NCBI GenBank assembly: GCA_017553505.1
Contig: JAFZLD010000018.1
Coordinates: 62,001-126,000, forward strand
Length of the DNA: 64,000 bases
DNA from: Lachnospiraceae bacterium
Lineage (GTDB): Bacteria; Bacillota; Clostridia; Lachnospirales; Lachnospiraceae
Reading direction: 5' to 3'
Position numbers and translations under genes: made by a program. Below the pieces are notes generated by a model. That model was not told the origin of the DNA. It was given only the letters and a program-made list of their open reading frames with translations, and did not search any database. The stretch's first letter is position 1, and the number at the start of each line of letters is the position of its first letter. Shown here one piece after another: positions 7,429-59,093 of the stretch.

Positions 7429-7695
7429 TGACCCATGCGGGTATATTAGCGCGTAAGGGTCATGTTTGCCTTGCGGTAACGACTCGTCATCGGTCGTTTC
7501 ATGCATTAAAAATAGGCGAATACAGGCCCCATGCGCACAAATTGCCACACAGGGTCATGGTAAATCAGGCGAGGAATGGTATTACGTTGACCCTAAGCAC
7601 CAAAAGCGTCTCGCGGGGTCATGCCATAGAAGAAAAAACACTAAAAATGAGAATAAATGCATGACCCTGTGGGACGGGAATTCTTTATAGGGTCA
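7429..7695. repeat. Array A, upstream half: four inverted-repeat units with 21-22 nt spacers
   Basis: Each unit reads TGACCC-N22-GGGTCA, 34 nt from end to end. Unit 1: arms 7429-7434 and 7457-7462. Unit 2: degenerate left arm GGCCCC 7525-7530 and right arm 7552-7557 (spacer 21). Unit 3: arms 7588-7593 and 7616-7621. Unit 4: arms 7662-7667 and 7690-7695. In units 1, 3 and 4 both arms are perfect and start exactly 28 nt apart. Most right arms extend to GGGTCATG. The spacers differ from each other. Linkers between units are 62, 30 and 40 nt. The last unit ends 43 nt before the start codon of the nuclease-like gene. No arm hexamer occurs inside that gene. Confidence 0.8.
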
Positions 7696-7738: not shown

Positions 7739-8533
7739 ATGACACAGCTTTTAAAACTATTAAACCAACGCGCTACGCTTTTAAAGCAAGCAATCCGCTA
7801 CGCGGAGAGTGAGACAACATTCCCACAAGGGCGCTTAAGAATTTCAAATGACAGGGGATGCCCAAGATACTACCATGTTACGGGAGATACAACTCATGAA
7901 GGTGATTATATATCAAAGGGCAATTTGGAGTTGGCGAAAGGATTAGCGCAGAAAGACTATAACAAAGCCTTTCTGGACAGCGCGCGTAAAGAACTGAAAA
8001 GAATCGAAAAGATGATTAAAGATTTCTCAAAGGAATCCGCCGACACCGCCTACACCAAATTGAATAAACACCGACGAAACCTCATAGAGCCATACATATA
8101 CACGGATGATAAATTTGCAGAGGAATGGCTCAAAAAGGATTACAAGACGAACCCATTCAAGCCGGAAGAAAAAACGCGTGACACAAATCGTGGCGACAAA
8201 GTCAGGTCTAAATCTGAGGGATTTATAGCGAATATCTTATTTGAATTGGGTATTCCATACCATTACGAGCAGTCATTGAAGCTTAGAAGCGGCAAGACAT
8301 ATTACCCTGACTTTACGCTACTTAAGAAAAGTACGAGAGAAGTATTCTACCTCGAACATCTGGGACTTTTGGATGATGAGACCTATAGAAAAAGCAATAT
8401 TGCCAAGATTGACGAATACCGCGCAAATGGTATTTATCTTGGGAAAAACTTGCTGATTACATACGAAACAGAAGACAGCCCTCTTGATATAAGAGGAATA
8501 AAGCGAATGCTAAAAGAGATCTTCGAAGTATAA
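7739..8533 (+). CDS. Solitary PD-(D/E)XK nuclease-like protein, locus A
   Basis: A 264-aa protein with no name that I recognise. The C-terminal half has the order expected of a PD-(D/E)XK nuclease fold: E160 in VRSKSEGFIANIL, then YEQSL, then P190-D191 in YYPDF, then E206 in FYLEHLG. The usual lysine after the second acid is replaced by His. The end, LLITYETEDSPLDIRGI, is shared with the locus B protein (58218). The N-terminal half is helical and charged with a shared motif (PQGRLRI...YYHV) and may bind nucleic acid. The start is fixed by AAGGAG 8 nt upstream. The gene looks AT-richer than its neighbours and stands alone, flanked on both sides by array A, which suggests horizontal acquisition. 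Nuclease activity is inferred from the motif only. Confidence 0.7.
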   Translation: MTQLLKLLNQRATLLKQAIRYAESETTFPQGRLRISNDRGCPRYYHVTGDTTHEGDYISKGNLELAKGLAQKDYNKAFLDSARKELKRIEKMIKDFSKESADTAYTKLNKHRRNLIEPYIYTDDKFAEEWLKKDYKTNPFKPEEKTRDTNRGDKVRSKSEGFIANILFELGIPYHYEQSLKLRSGKTYYPDFTLLKKSTREVFYLEHLGLLDDETYRKSNIAKIDEYRANGIYLGKNLLITYETEDSPLDIRGIKRMLKEIFEV

Positions 8534-8535
8534 TT

Positions 8536-8654
8536 AGCTGATTTGGAGTTCTTGCGTAGTTTTGTACGGCAGGTGCCATGGGAATGTCATGCAGTCTGCC
8601 AATAATTGTACGATACATGCTTCACAACACGAAATATGCCCCTGAAATCAGCTT
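8536..8654 (+). other. 3' flank of nuclease A with inverted repeat
   Basis: AGCTGATTT (8536-8544), directly after the stop codon, pairs with AAATCAGCT (8646-8654). Inside lies GGCAG...CTGCC around a near-palindrome (TGCCATG...CATGCA). It may fold as an RNA or act as a weak terminator, although no T run follows. AGCTGATTTCA also occurs at 7313-7323, so the 11-bp sequence flanks the gene and its upstream array in inverted orientation. Confidence 0.4.
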
Positions 8655-8892
8655 TTACTCCATGGGGTCATGCGTAGCAGAGATGTCCAATGACCCTGGA
8701 TATCAAAATGGTTTATAGGGTCAGGCATTTCCTTAAGAAGGATACTTCAAACGTATCAAAATGCTTCTTTTTGCTGCCCCCTATGATGCCAAAATCTTTA
8801 TGGGGTCAAGAAAGCGATATTTTTGAAGAATAATTGCGTTGAAAGTAACGGCAATATATGACCCTATAAGGAAGAAACTGTCTATGGGGCCA
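8637..8892. repeat. Array A, downstream half: four more units
   Basis: The same geometry continues after the gene. Unit 5: TGCCCC 8637-8642 and GGGTCA 8665-8670. Unit 6: TGACCC 8691-8696 and GGGTCA 8718-8723 (spacer 21). Unit 7: TGCCCC 8775-8780 and GGGTCA 8803-8808. Unit 8: TGACCC 8859-8864 and GGGCCA 8887-8892. Three of the four pairs start exactly 28 nt apart, including the pairs with one mismatched arm, so the degenerate arms are part of the pattern and not chance. Spacers of units 6 and 7 are related (both GAT..CAAAAT..TTTAT). A separate hairpin, AAGAAG-GATAC...GTATC...CTTCTT (8735-8769), lies between units 6 and 7. Confidence 0.75.
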
Positions 8893-55002: not shown

Positions 55003-57666
55003 ATGAAAAAAGAACTTGAAAAGAATTACAACCCCAAGGAGATGGAAGACAGAATTTATCAGAACTGGCTTGATAAAAAGTACTTCCATGCAGAAGTAGA
55101 CAGAACCAAGAAACCTTTCACTATCGTGATTCCCCCTCCGAACATCACCGGACAGCTCCACATGGGTCATGCACTTGACAACACCATGCAGGACATCCTT
55201 ATCAGATTCAAGAGAATGCAGGGCTACAACGCATTATGGCAGCCCGGCACCGACCACGCTTCAATCGCTACTGAGGTCAAGATCATCGAGACCCTCAAGA
55301 AGCAGGGCATTTCCAAAGAAGATCTCGGACGCGAAGGCTTCTTAGAGCGCGCCTGGGAGTGGAAGAAAGAATACGGTGGAAGAATCATCTCCCAGCTTAA
55401 GAAGATGGGTTCATCCTGTGACTGGGACAGAGAACGTTTCACCATGGATGAAGGCTGTAACAAGGCCGTTACCGAAGTATTCTGCAAGATGCACGAGAAA
55501 GGCTGGATTTACAAGGGTTCACGTATCATCAACTGGTGTCCCGTATGTAACACATCCATTTCCGATGCGGAAGTTGAATACGAGGAGCAGGCAGGCCACT
55601 TCTGGCACATTAAGTACCCTCTTGTAGATGAGAACGGTAAGCCTTCCACCACAGAATTCTTAGAGTTCGCAACCACACGTCCCGAGACCATGCTCGGTGA
55701 TACCGCTGTAGCTATCAATCCCGAGGACGAGAGATATACATACTTAAAGGGCCGTCAGGTATGGCTTCCCATCGTTAACAAGCCTATCCCTGTAGTAGAA
55801 GATTCCTACGTAGACATGGAATTCGGTACCGGTGTTGTTAAGATTACACCCGCTCACGACCCTAACGACTTCGAAGTAGGTAAGCGTCACAACCTTCCCG
55901 AAATCAACATCCTTAACGACGACGCCACCATCAACAAGAACGGCGGCAAGTACGAAGGCATGGACAGATACGAAGCAAGAAAAGCTATCGTTAAGGAACT
56001 TGACGATTTGGGTCTTCTTGTACGCATCGAAGATTACACCCACAACGTAGGTACTCACGACCGTTGCGGTACCACAATCGAGCCCATGATTAAGCAGCAG
56101 TGGTTCGTTAAGATGGACGAGCTTATCAAGCCCGCAGTTGAAGCTGTTAAGACCGGCGACATCAAGCTTGTTCCCGAAAGAATGGACAAGACATACTTTA
56201 ACTGGACCGACAACATCCGCGACTGGTGTATCTCCAGACAGCTTTGGTGGGGACACAGAATTCCCGCTTACTACTGCCCCGAGTGCGGCGAAGTTACCGT
56301 AGCAAGAACCGCTCCCGACAAGTGTCCCAAGTGCGGATGCACTCATCTTGAGCAGGATCCGGATACACTTGATACATGGTTCTCTTCAGCTTTGTGGCCT
56401 TTCTCAACCTTAGGCTGGCCCGAGCACACCGAAGACCTTGATTACTTCTATCCCACAGACGTTTTGGTAACCGGTTACGACATCATCTTCTTCTGGGTTA
56501 TCAGAATGATTTTCTCCGGATACGAGAACATGGGCAAGAAGCCCTTCAGTACCGTTTTGTTCCACGGTCTTGTAAGAGACTCCCAGGGACGTAAGATGAG
56601 TAAGTCTCTCGGCAATGGTATCGATCCTTTGGAGATTATCGATAATTACGGCGCAGACGCACTTCGCCTTACCCTCATCACCGGTAACGCACCCGGTAAC
56701 GACATGCGTTTCTACAACGAGCGTGTTGAAGCAAGCCGTAACTTTGCCAATAAGATTTGGAACGCTTCACGTTTCATCATGATGAACATGGGCGACGAGA
56801 ATCCCACAAAGCCCGCGGTAGCAGAGCTCGAGCCTGTAGACAAGTGGATTCTTTCCCGTTGCAACACCCTCATCAAGGATGTTACCGACAACATGGAGAA
56901 GTTCGACCTTGGCGTAGCAGTTCAGAAGGTTTACGACTTCATCTGGGATGAGTTCTGTGACTGGTACATCGAAATGGTTAAGCCCCGCCTCTACTCAGAC
57001 ACCGACAAGGCTTCCAAGAACGCAGCACTTTGGACCCTCAAGCATGTATGTATCGATGCTCTTAAACTCTTACATCCTTACATGCCCTTCGTAACAGAAG
57101 AAATCTTCACCACTATTCAGGACGAAGAAGAATCCATCATGATTTCTTCATGGCCTGTATACAGCGATGAGTTTTCTTTTGCTAAAGAGGAAAAAGAAAT
57201 CGAGACCATCAAGGAAGCAGTTCGCTCCATCAGAAACGTACGTACCGGCATGAACGTTGCGCCTTCACGTAAGGCCAAGGTCTTCGTAGTAAGTGCAGAT
57301 GCAGCTATCCGCGACATCTTCAAGGACGGCGAGATTTACTTTAAGCCCCTTGCATACGCTTCAGAAGTAGAGATTCAGGCCGACAAGGCAGGCATCCCCG
57401 AGGACGCAGTATCCGCAGTGATTGCAGGCGCTACCCTCTACATGCCTTTCGCCGAGCTCGTAGACATCTCCGCCGAGATCGAGCGTCTTACCAAAGAAGA
57501 GGCAAGACTTCAGGGCGAGATTAAACGTTCAAATGGCATGCTTAACAACGAGAAGTTCATCTCCAAGGCTCCCGCAGCCAAGGTTCAGGAAGAAAAGGAC
57601 AAGCTCGTTAAGTATGAGCAGATGCTTAAGGAAGTAACAGAGAGACTGGCTTCACTTAAGAAGTAA
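55003..57666 (+). CDS. valS: Valyl-tRNA synthetase
   Basis: An 887-aa class I synthetase. Seen: [19 protein letters not shown] (HIGH-type motif at 53-56), the CP1 editing domain with [11 protein letters not shown], zinc-type cysteines in the [10 protein letters not shown] and [10 protein letters not shown] pairs, KMSKS at 531-535, the anticodon-binding domain, and the C-terminal coiled coil ([15 protein letters not shown]...[11 protein letters not shown]) typical of ValRS. It starts 9 nt after pepF with AGGAGG. It is closed by a strong terminator. Confidence 0.97.
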
Positions 57667-57683
57667 ATAATGATTCAATATGC

Positions 57684-57712
57684 GCCGCCCCGAAGTTTCG
57701 GGGCGGCTTTTT
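57684..57712 (+). terminator. Terminator after valS
   Basis: GCCGCCCCGAA-GT-TTCGGGGCGGC is followed by TTTTT. It separates valS from locus B. Confidence 0.9.
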
Positions 57713-57775
57713 ATGTTACGGCAACGCGAAAAATGACTTTTCGTGCTTGCGGGCGCCGGCTTGCTTTGACTGTGT

Positions 57776-57804
57776 TTGCAAATATCTTTTTTATGCTGTA
57801 TAAT
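57776..57804 (+). promoter_or_regulatory. Strong promoter upstream of array B
   Basis: TTGCAA-N17-TATAAT, with TG just before the -10. The predicted start near 57811 is before every array unit and about 400 nt before the nuclease start codon. A near-palindrome, GGGC-CTTATAAG-TGCCC (57835-57851), lies about 25 nt after the start and could be an operator. Confidence 0.65.
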
Positions 57805-57836
57805 CCAATACAGTTTCCGTGGCGGAGACTAATCGG

Positions 57837-58143
57837 GCCTTATAAGTGCCCGTATTCAGAGAAATTAGATGCTTTGGCCGACTTGTTTTTGCGCGTGGCA
57901 ACTAATTCTTTCAATATCAAATCGATTAGATGCTTATTTTTCGTCCTTATCGAAGAAAACGGCATCTAAAAAATCCATTAGAGACAAATTTGAAGGCTTT
58001 TTTTGTGGTATGAAGCTATATTGACATCGTTTTGCCCGGTGAAAAGCATCTATATGTGTTTGCGCAGAATAATTAGATGCCGGAGAAAGCAATCTGACTT
58101 ACTTTCAGGCATCTAAATATGCACACAAGCACTTTTAGTATGC
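57837..58143. repeat. Array B: five inverted-repeat units with 20-23 nt spacers
   Basis: Arms are GCATCTA (left) and TAGATGC (right, often ATTAGATGC). Unit 1: weak left arm near 57837 and right arm 57866-57872. Unit 2: GCAACTA 57898-57904 and TAGATGC 57927-57933. Unit 3: GCATCTA 57962-57968 and weak TGAAGGC about 57991-57997. Unit 4: GCATCTA 58046-58052 and TAGATGC 58074-58080, arms starting exactly 28 nt apart. Unit 5: GCATCTA 58109-58115 and TAG-T-ATGC 58136-58143. Linkers are about 25, 28, 48 and 28 nt. All units lie before the gene; none was found after it. Units 1 and 3 each have one poor arm, so three units are strong and two are inferred from spacing. Confidence 0.72.
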
Positions 58144-58217
58144 TCAAGGGCAATATTGAAGCAATATATACCCCTTCTCTGCAGAATTGCCGGAAGAAAA
58201 ACGCAGAAAGGAGCATT

Positions 58218-59048
58218 ATGAGCAAAATTAAAGGCATTGGAGGGGACGAAGACTGGGCTAAGGATGTGCGGCCGGCGCTTGAGGAGCGATTTCAATTGCT
58301 GGAATCTGAGGTAAGAAAAAGAAACGGCGCCTTAAAAAGCGCTCCCGAAGGAACATTAAGAGTTATAAAACATGGAAATAGCTATCAATTTTATCACAGG
58401 ACCGAACCGGGCGATACATCGGGTAAATATATTAAGAAACAGAATATCAAACTTGCACAGGAGCTTGCGCAGAAGGCGTACGATAAAAAGTTTGTTGAAC
58501 TTGCGTCAAAAGAAATGCTGTTAATAGGCAAATATTTGAAGGAAACTGCGCCGGAAGATATCAAACACATTTATAACAATATGCATGAGCATAAGAAATT
58601 GCTGGTTCATCCGGTAATGCAGGATGACGATACATTTTTAATTCAGTGGAAAAGCGTCACCTACGAGCCGGGCTTTTTCAAAGAAGGAATTCCCACATAT
58701 ATTACAGCCAACGGCGAAAGGGTACGCTCAAAGATAGAAGTAAACATAGCAAATATGCTTGAATTCTACGGGGTTCCATACCGATACGAATACCCGCTGA
58801 TGCTTGGAAATAAGGAAAAAAGACCGGACTTTGTCTGCCTAAACGTAAGCAAAAGAAAAGAGATAATATGGGAGCATTTCGGAATGATGGATTATGCAGA
58901 ATATGCAATTTCCAATGTGGCCAAGATAAACGCATACATGGAGAACGGGTATATACCGGGCGATAATCTTATAATGACTTTTGAAACTGCTGAAAATCCT
59001 CTCAGTACCATCCTGATAAGAGAGCTGATTGAATCATATCTTGTCTAG
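58218..59048 (+). CDS. Solitary PD-(D/E)XK nuclease-like protein, locus B
   Basis: A 276-aa homologue of the locus A protein. Putative active site: E174 in VRSKIEVNIANML, P203-D204 in KRPDF, E219 in IIWEHFGMMD. The D-to-E distance is 15 in both proteins. The N-terminal half shares PEGTLRV and the YIKKQNIKLAQELAQKAYDKKF helix with locus A (YISKGNLELAKGLAQKDYNKAF). The end, LIMTFETAENPLSTILI, is also shared. ATG 58218 is preferred over ATG 58119 because AAAGGAG lies 6 nt upstream and because the earlier codon falls inside array unit 5. It is a single gene with no helicase, methylase or transposase beside it. Catalysis is inferred from the motif; targets are unknown. Confidence 0.72.
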   Translation: MSKIKGIGGDEDWAKDVRPALEERFQLLESEVRKRNGALKSAPEGTLRVIKHGNSYQFYHRTEPGDTSGKYIKKQNIKLAQELAQKAYDKKFVELASKEMLLIGKYLKETAPEDIKHIYNNMHEHKKLLVHPVMQDDDTFLIQWKSVTYEPGFFKEGIPTYITANGERVRSKIEVNIANMLEFYGVPYRYEYPLMLGNKEKRPDFVCLNVSKRKEIIWEHFGMMDYAEYAISNVAKINAYMENGYIPGDNLIMTFETAENPLSTILIRELIESYLV

Positions 59049-59049
59049 C

Positions 59050-59093
59050 CTTAAGGAAAAAATGAATTATCTTTGGCTTTTCTTAAGAAAGCC
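59050..59093 (+). terminator. Weak terminator after nuclease B
   Basis: CTTAAGGAAAA can pair with TTTTCTTAAG (one bulge); the tail is mixed. Nothing resembling an array unit is found from here to the GntR gene. Confidence 0.45.

Follow-up and report, generated by a model that had tools for sequence, protein, structure and literature searches.

The question raised by locus B is what a crowd of short inverted arms does in front of a small nuclease-like gene. The reading that we prefer, at a probability of roughly 0.55, is a selfish or mobile single-gene module, whose nuclease-like protein would bind its own phased dyad array through its N-terminal domain. The window, i.e. the whole stretch of 64,000 nucleotides of Lachnospiraceae DNA that was analysed, holds two such loci, A and B.

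The left edge of locus B is marked by a terminator-like hairpin (57684–57707, plus strand) after the upstream gene, which ends at 57666 and by our own reading probably encodes valyl-tRNA synthetase; the gene on the 3' side (from 59194) would similarly encode a GntR-like regulator. A promoter-like site (TTTGCA or TTGCAA, 17–18 nt, TATAAT; 57775–57804, plus strand), a match to the consensus only, precedes the array, and the region holds six such consensus matches versus 3.8 ± 2.0 in shuffled sequence. Within 250 bp the arms GCATCTA and TAGATGC occur six times exactly (57866, 57927, 57962, 58046, 58074 and 58109), and GCAACTA at 57898 is a seventh arm with one mismatch. Across the whole window the exact copies number 10 versus 8.3 expected, a count reached by 30 of 100 shuffles, so the signal of locus B is the clustering of its arms and not their number; none of 60 Markov-simulated windows had more than two arms per 260-bp stretch. 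The arm pair at 58046 and 58074 forms the perfect dyad unit GCATCTA-N21-TAGATGC (58046–58080), the single exact copy in the genome (3.13 Mb, spacers of 16–26 allowed). The sequence-only reading had the arms starting about 28 nt apart, and this holds for that pair, the sole exact one at this distance. Elsewhere the distances differ: the imperfect unit GCAACTA-N22-TAGATGC (57898–57933) measures 29 nt start to start with one mismatch, and the remaining adjacent arms are spaced 32, 35, 84 and 35 nt. The other half-sites are TAGATGC at 57866–57872 (plus strand), GCATCTA at 57962–57968 (minus strand), which has no clear partner and lies 64 bp past 57898 and 84 bp ahead of 58046, and GCATCTA at 58109–58115 (minus strand), 63 bp past 58046. 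Measured between arms of one kind, the steps are 64, 84 and 63 bp for GCA(T/A)CTA (6.1, 8.0 and 6.0 helical turns) and 61 and 147 bp for TAGATGC (5.8 and 14.0 turns). Avoidance of the arm TTAGATGC by the host was rejected, as it occurs 39 times in the home genome (G000) and a similar 34 times in the relative G015, which is without locus B, and the reversed pattern 86 and 81 times.

The gene itself (58218–59048, plus strand) encodes 276 amino acids, with an N-terminal reader region at residues ~18–95 (58269–58502, plus strand), which the arm sequence tracks, and a C-terminal nuclease-like domain (RSK.E174, PD204F, E219H220FG; 58695–59045, plus strand) in common with the PADLOC candidate PDC-S68. 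The length and the gap of 15 residues from D204 to E219, identical in the locus A protein, are as they had been read from the sequence. Locus A encodes a paralogue of 264 amino acids (7739–8533, plus strand; 35% identity to the locus B protein), and TGACCC/GGGTCA arrays flank this gene on either side: upstream at 7429–7695, with steps of 95, 64 and 74 bp between right arms, and downstream at 8637–8892, with four units at steps of 54, 84 and 84 bp, three of the four having one mismatch.

A genome-wide search yielded nine paralogues in the home genome, bearing out the multi-copy, diversifying family that two genes with two motifs had implied. Their flanks give eight arm types, since L008 and L009 have one in common; the type of L006, being degenerate, was assigned by eye. 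The nine-paralogue profile has matches in 11 of 18 genomes within the genus, in 93 of 250 within the family and in 21 of 398 within the phylum; in the 16 matching genomes outside the family it matched only from position 100 onward, and the reader region alone matched 74 of 250 family genomes (E 1e-5). A scan of named genomes gave 411 stretches encoding relatives, and hosts among the best 80 of these 411, which were kept, include Lachnospiraceae, rumen Treponema, Fibrobacter and others. No fitting family was found in Pfam for the window protein, whose one weak match is FAINT (E 0.21); the 89 members scanned matched 42 families, all weakly and each in at most three members, with no transposase among the 25 listed, and NCBIfam gave a convincing match for none of four proteins. 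In collections of mobile elements, relatives were found on viral contigs (three, partial), plasmids (five, C-terminal) and phages (three, one of them full-length). The full-length relative, L272 (MT839528.1; 29% identity), comes from faeces, on a 4.2-kb record that was deposited as phage. Among the neighbours of 219 loci, named by our own reading, guaA recurs at 12 loci (upstream at 10), a comEC-like gene at 12 (upstream at all) and lysS at 7 (upstream at 6), and differing nuclease types occupy one and the same neighbour site, a check that covered ten of twelve loci at two of three sites. At L273, L274, L275, L276, L277 and L281 the family gene is broken, gapped or left as a remnant.

These 219 loci, from which sequence-identical genes had been removed, were tested for arrays up to 1.2 kb from the gene, a score of at least 20 counting as an array. 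Arrays were detected in 165 of them (upstream alone in 131, downstream alone in 21, on both sides in 13); among the controls, 2 of 57 distal windows reached this score and none of the 1744 shuffles did. Truncated contigs and degenerate arrays, that of L006 for example, are among the 54 loci without an array by this detector. As the 165 loci have many different arms, the proposal that the layout is kept by function and not by descent of the repeat gains support. A stricter scan of 1275 overlapping windows covered the window in full, a further 40 kb of the home genome and, in other loci, DNA more than ~1.3 kb from family genes, and besides locus A it found arrays only at L101, L139 and L141; the locus B array scores below its threshold. 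The extra arrays (L101:1771-2100, L139:940-1130 and L141:427-760) lie at least 1.7 kb from the nuclease gene, and those of L101 and L139 have arms unlike those of the neighbouring nuclease locus.

The strongest regularity, which the earlier reading missed, is a near-whole-turn spacing between units. In 178 arrays the 658 unit-to-unit distances of up to 230 bp peak near 53, 63–64, 74, 85, 95 and 106 bp, with a best period of 10.55 bp and a vector length of 0.83, which is 0.79 with each distance class taken once per array (265 values) and 0.82 for 205 unit pairs with unrelated spacers. As many as 611 of the 658 steps lie no more than 1.5 bp off whole multiples of 10.5 bp, versus 28.6% expected. 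Thus the units seem to face one side of double-stranded DNA, and the whole-turn spacing is a clear trace, at the level of sequence, of a protein-DNA assembly. The distance within a unit is far less phased (vector length 0.34) and mostly 27–32 nt; a consistent spacing in further loci had been predicted and was found, while 28 nt as the general layout is not universal. Arrays most often have 3–5 units and up to 16. In the subfamily with scattered arrays described below, the steps of 51–52, 61 and 70–72 bp fall up to 2.5–3.5 bp short of whole 10.5-bp turns.

To relate arms to proteins, we compared arm similarity with identity at residues 20–95 (N), 96–160 (middle) and 161–276 (C) in the 165 loci with arm matrices, the locus pairs being non-independent. 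Arm similarity exceeds 0.6 in every one of the 22 pairs whose N identity is 0.8 or more, and in none of the 117 pairs that combine a C identity of 0.6 or more with an N identity below 0.3. Where C is 0.72 or higher (90 pairs), N has a rank weight of 0.76 on arm similarity, the middle 0.17 and C -0.08; where N is 0.4 or higher (744 pairs), all three parts weigh equally (0.18, 0.20 and 0.18). Taken across all pairs, arm similarity correlates weakly with protein similarity (0.13 and 0.14, the first reached by 0 of 200 permutations), because arms are mostly unrelated below ~40% identity, and a sliding-window mapping of specificity gave 0.13–0.38 throughout, with its maximum at residues 35–54. The idea that each protein is matched to its own arms through its N-terminal half is thus supported, the arm following the ~95 N-terminal residues where the nuclease halves are similar. 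Natural chimeras point the same way. At one syntenic locus in three genomes (L002, L014 and L015), L002 and L014 share 0.98 identity over the C-terminal part and 0.66 over the reader and have the arms AATGCATAA and AATGGATAA, respectively, six of the nine half-sites read in L014 having the new core and three fitting neither, whereas L015 keeps the arm of L002 at 0.86 in the C-terminal part and 0.91 in the reader. Furthermore, L089 is 0.73–0.81 identical to L097, L098, L100–L104 and L110 in the C-terminal part and 0.20–0.24 in the reader, and its arm is unrelated to theirs; with L172 (C 0.75) it has the arm in common at a reader identity of 0.49. A candidate specificity position in the reader is R-F in L008 and L009, K-W in L311 and L312 and K-Y in L029 (arm TATCCCA). 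Taken as a claim by itself, recognition of the DNA by the N-terminal domain is very likely. The profile of this domain has no credible match in the PDB (best E 0.025), and N-terminal Pfam matches are confined to at most 3 of 42 members; by residue pattern, and in our own reading, it may resemble the arm-binding (AP2-like) domain of tyrosine integrases, a three-stranded sheet plus helix. A reader joined to another effector was seen at none of nine places picked among the matches listed, which hold three full-length family genes, four readers with a C-terminal piece in another frame and two remnants.

In the C-terminal half, S171, K172, E174, D204, E219 and H220 are invariant in 89 proteins, and F or L mostly stands in place of the usual ExK lysine, so that catalysis would need another residue; the domain is probably an active PD-(D/E)XK-like nuclease. 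All four proteins compared match the C-terminus of PDC-S68 (E 2.5e-30 to 1.9e-23), the window protein at profile positions 1099–1218 of 1221, and of the five plasmid hits to this half four are annotated as AAA family ATPase, the fifth record being unannotated. With the full profile, T7 endonuclease I (PDB 1fzr, 1m0d, 2pfj) shows weak similarity at residues 163–204 (E 0.35–0.57), a lead only; the C-terminal profile gave no credible PDB match, T7 endonuclease I included. Relatives of this domain also occur inside long open frames of up to 1269 amino acids (L073–L088, L037).

Exact units of locus B and of L003 are not found in the home genome away from their own arrays. The arm of L008 and L009 forms 32 exact units in the same genome, in two gene-linked and seven gene-free arrays, the latter sitting between other open frames and mostly having four to six units with imperfect ones included. 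That arms would be confined to their own gene hence held only in part: one subfamily has them in arrays without a nuclease gene, and there they mostly match the nuclease of their own genome. The gene-free arrays of G000 were found by exact TTATCGCA, so TTATCCCA arrays could be missed there, and this search biases its count of 70 TTATCGCA and 0 TTATCCCA half-sites in nine arrays. In the relatives G015 and G007, a BLAST search that started from two G000 arrays and does not favour TTATCCCA found similar arrays; the 15 retrieved besides L297 and L298 have the arm TTATCCCA, and the arm adjoining the corresponding nucleases, L312 and L311 (one per relative), is also TTATCCCA. Totals over the entire fetched stretches are 71 TTATCCCA and 5 other half-sites in ten arrays of G015, and 45 and 5 in seven arrays of G007. 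Each relative retains one TTATCGCA array, L298 (8 half-sites) in G015 and L297 (7) in G007, and no nuclease with a TTATCGCA arm was detected in these two genomes. L298, L297 and L296 are TTATCGCA arrays where the detected nuclease of the type bears the other arm, and they are possibly relics.

Three G000 arrays align with arrays of a relative that have the other arm, the DNA between units included. L293 aligns with L315 along both flanks and with L325 along one, the L008 array with L318 along both, and L291 with L320 along one. These three thus appear to have switched arm in place. L318 is the array of L008 minus the gene, and L008 and L009 are homologous over a stretch that starts in the promoter region and continues to the array's end. 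The stretch 57667–59083, which includes locus B, is missing from the matching intergenic site of G015 and G007, which are of the same genus; these and G006, where the gene is missing at that site, are the 3 of 16 fetched sites at which both flanks could be aligned, and locus B is missing in all three. The gene-free array L294 is missing in G015 and G007 as well. Neither a target-site duplication nor defined ends were found at the present/absent sites of locus B or L294.

We infer cutting, dimers and mobility of the module from these patterns. The reader of ~95 residues would read one half-site of 7–11 bp, as covariation and natural chimeras suggest, and a dimer probably binds each dyad unit, since two half-sites face each other ~28 bp apart. 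Because the units lie near whole turns, bound dimers would be on one face of the DNA, where they probably touch and loop out the intervening DNA. The nuclease would then act at its own arrays, and repair or recombination would spread and homogenise the arrays and sometimes carry the gene along; binding to the upstream array would presumably also repress the gene. A selfish module would explain the gene-free scatter, the switch of arms together with the nuclease, the present/absent sites and the occurrence of gene plus array versus array only at one site. The further claim that the nuclease propagates and rewrites its own address sites, with repair copying arrays, arm variants and at times the gene from site to site so that protein specificity and dozens of scattered half-sites switch together, we put forward tentatively and at less than even odds. 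That many half-sites were switched in place is more easily reached by recombination between arrays than by independent selection at each site. The unchanged unit number in five orthologous array pairs, at 9–18% gene divergence, argues against frequent cutting. Further points against the mobile reading are that two other arm types of the home genome are undispersed, that a target-site duplication is missing and that TTATCGCA arrays persist in G015 and G007.

The main rival, which may coexist with a selfish module, is autoregulation or sequestration only, where the array would be a high-copy operator and store, and the nuclease would repress itself and be held inactive, with no mobility; the scattered arrays would then serve as additional sites of regulation or storage. 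The array stands upstream in 144 of the 165 array-bearing loci, and in 42 of these 144 its last unit is less than 60 nt from the aligned gene start, which leaves little room for a promoter behind the array. The best promoter-like site (consensus only) lies before the array in 67, inside it in 37 and after it in 28 of 132 upstream arrays with at least three units, and its position was non-decisive. Looping repressors typically have whole-turn spacing, those of the autoregulated LacI and AraC type having their operators so placed; unlike these, the family has an attached nuclease-like domain, up to 16 units and arms that differ among paralogues. We consider autoregulation alone a possible but rather unlikely account, however, as the array is downstream in 34 of the 165 loci and exclusively there in 21, gene-free arrays lie far from the gene, and selection per site would hardly reach an in-place switch of many half-sites at several sites.

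Less likely still is an anti-phage or addiction system in which the nuclease, harmless on its array, is freed by infection or loss of the locus, the DNA array being the antidote. It would fit the C-terminal match of all four proteins to PDC-S68, the many paralogues of different specificity and the joint change of reader and array, since toxin-immunity and restriction-specificity modules likewise show joint change; yet three long-arm units had 0 exact matches each in the viral collection, and those recurrent neighbours that can be named look, in our own reading, like housekeeping genes.

The composition of the arrays bears on the last alternative. In 16 comparisons from 15 pairs, of which L008/L009 are paralogues of one genome, and apart from an additional pair, L131/L146, that yielded no aligned positions, divergence amounts to 18 of 868 positions in arms, a value lowered by the requirement that arms be detected in both members, and to 197 of 971 in inner spacers and 501 of 2913 in the DNA between units. 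Over 4355 arm positions, 547 mutations are one-sided and 43 two-sided, 28 of the 43 matching; the excess over the 23 two-sided changes expected if sides were independent may stem from shared descent of units or from uneven positional conservation. An RNA mechanism, with hairpins or guides made for the protein from a transcribed array in the manner of CRISPR, TIGR or type III antitoxins, is very improbable and disfavoured: the arms can pair, two-sided changes exceed expectation, and the promoter-like site ahead of the locus B array means that it may be transcribed, but 547 of 590 changed arm positions are one-sided, spacers evolve ~10 times faster than arms, unit distances track the helical repeat of double-stranded DNA, and nine loci were without a match in Rfam up to E 1. 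Stems would give more compensation and guides would preserve spacers, so both the hairpin and the guide reading were rejected; phasing, conserved arms, free spacers and mostly one-sided mutations mark the arms as probable double-stranded DNA sites. As specific candidates, a CRISPR- or TIGR-like guide array fails because spacers are not kept between orthologous arrays, and a type III toxin-antitoxin RNA repeat because conservation is limited to the arms and Rfam is empty.

The closest functional analogue known to us of the selfish module would be the RAYT/REP/REPIN system, in which, according to PMC3116915, palindromic repeats are related to a nearby enzyme gene, also stand solitary between genes and fall into groups tied to particular proteins. 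Likewise, the present repeats are tied to an enzyme gene and also occur gene-free, REPIN-like extragenic dispersal being present for the TTATCGCA/TTATCCCA subfamily only. Unlike in RAYT/REPIN, a Y1 (HUH) transposase match is absent from the Pfam families listed, a PD-(D/E)XK-like domain taking its place, and the repeats are helix-phased dyads of probable double-stranded sites and not hairpin doublets; the module thus probably works like RAYT/REPIN without being one. The C-terminal domain is shared with PDC-S68 and AAA family ATPases, whereas the protein, at 276 amino acids, lacks the long N-terminal part of PDC-S68 (~1200 positions) and has a reader of ~95 residues and an array. In HsdS of type I restriction-modification the specificity part is swapped between alleles while the catalytic part stays constant; the family is alike in this, but its recognised sites adjoin the gene. 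Searches of the open-access literature gave no precedent for a nuclease with a matching phased array.

The family is widespread, with many versions in gut and rumen bacteria, and without a Pfam match in the proteins scanned. Its presumed DNA target adjoins the gene and is legible in the genome sequence, so the recognition code of the reader becomes approachable from sequence. The resource for this consists of 165 protein-site pairs, among at least 411 relatives, together with natural chimeras and one-base switches. Moreover, through the joint arm switch, concerted evolution can be tested on scattered bacterial repeats. If the nuclease does rewrite its addresses, it would represent a counterpart of REPIN/RAYT outside the HUH enzymes, and a naturally occurring dimeric reader-nuclease whose DNA specificity can be read and switched.

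A fourth site, with the arrays L316 and L326 in G015 and G007, has a solo TTATCCCA unit in G000 (L330:19145-19180), which emerged from 40 kb of G000 examined at this one site; the relatives have a four-unit array there, and the solo unit looks as if units 1 and 4 had collapsed into it. The gene-free arrays L293, L294, L315 and L325 look mirror-symmetric, and some gene-free arrays have GTTATGT motifs between units 1 and 2 and TTTACATAAC between units 3 and 4.
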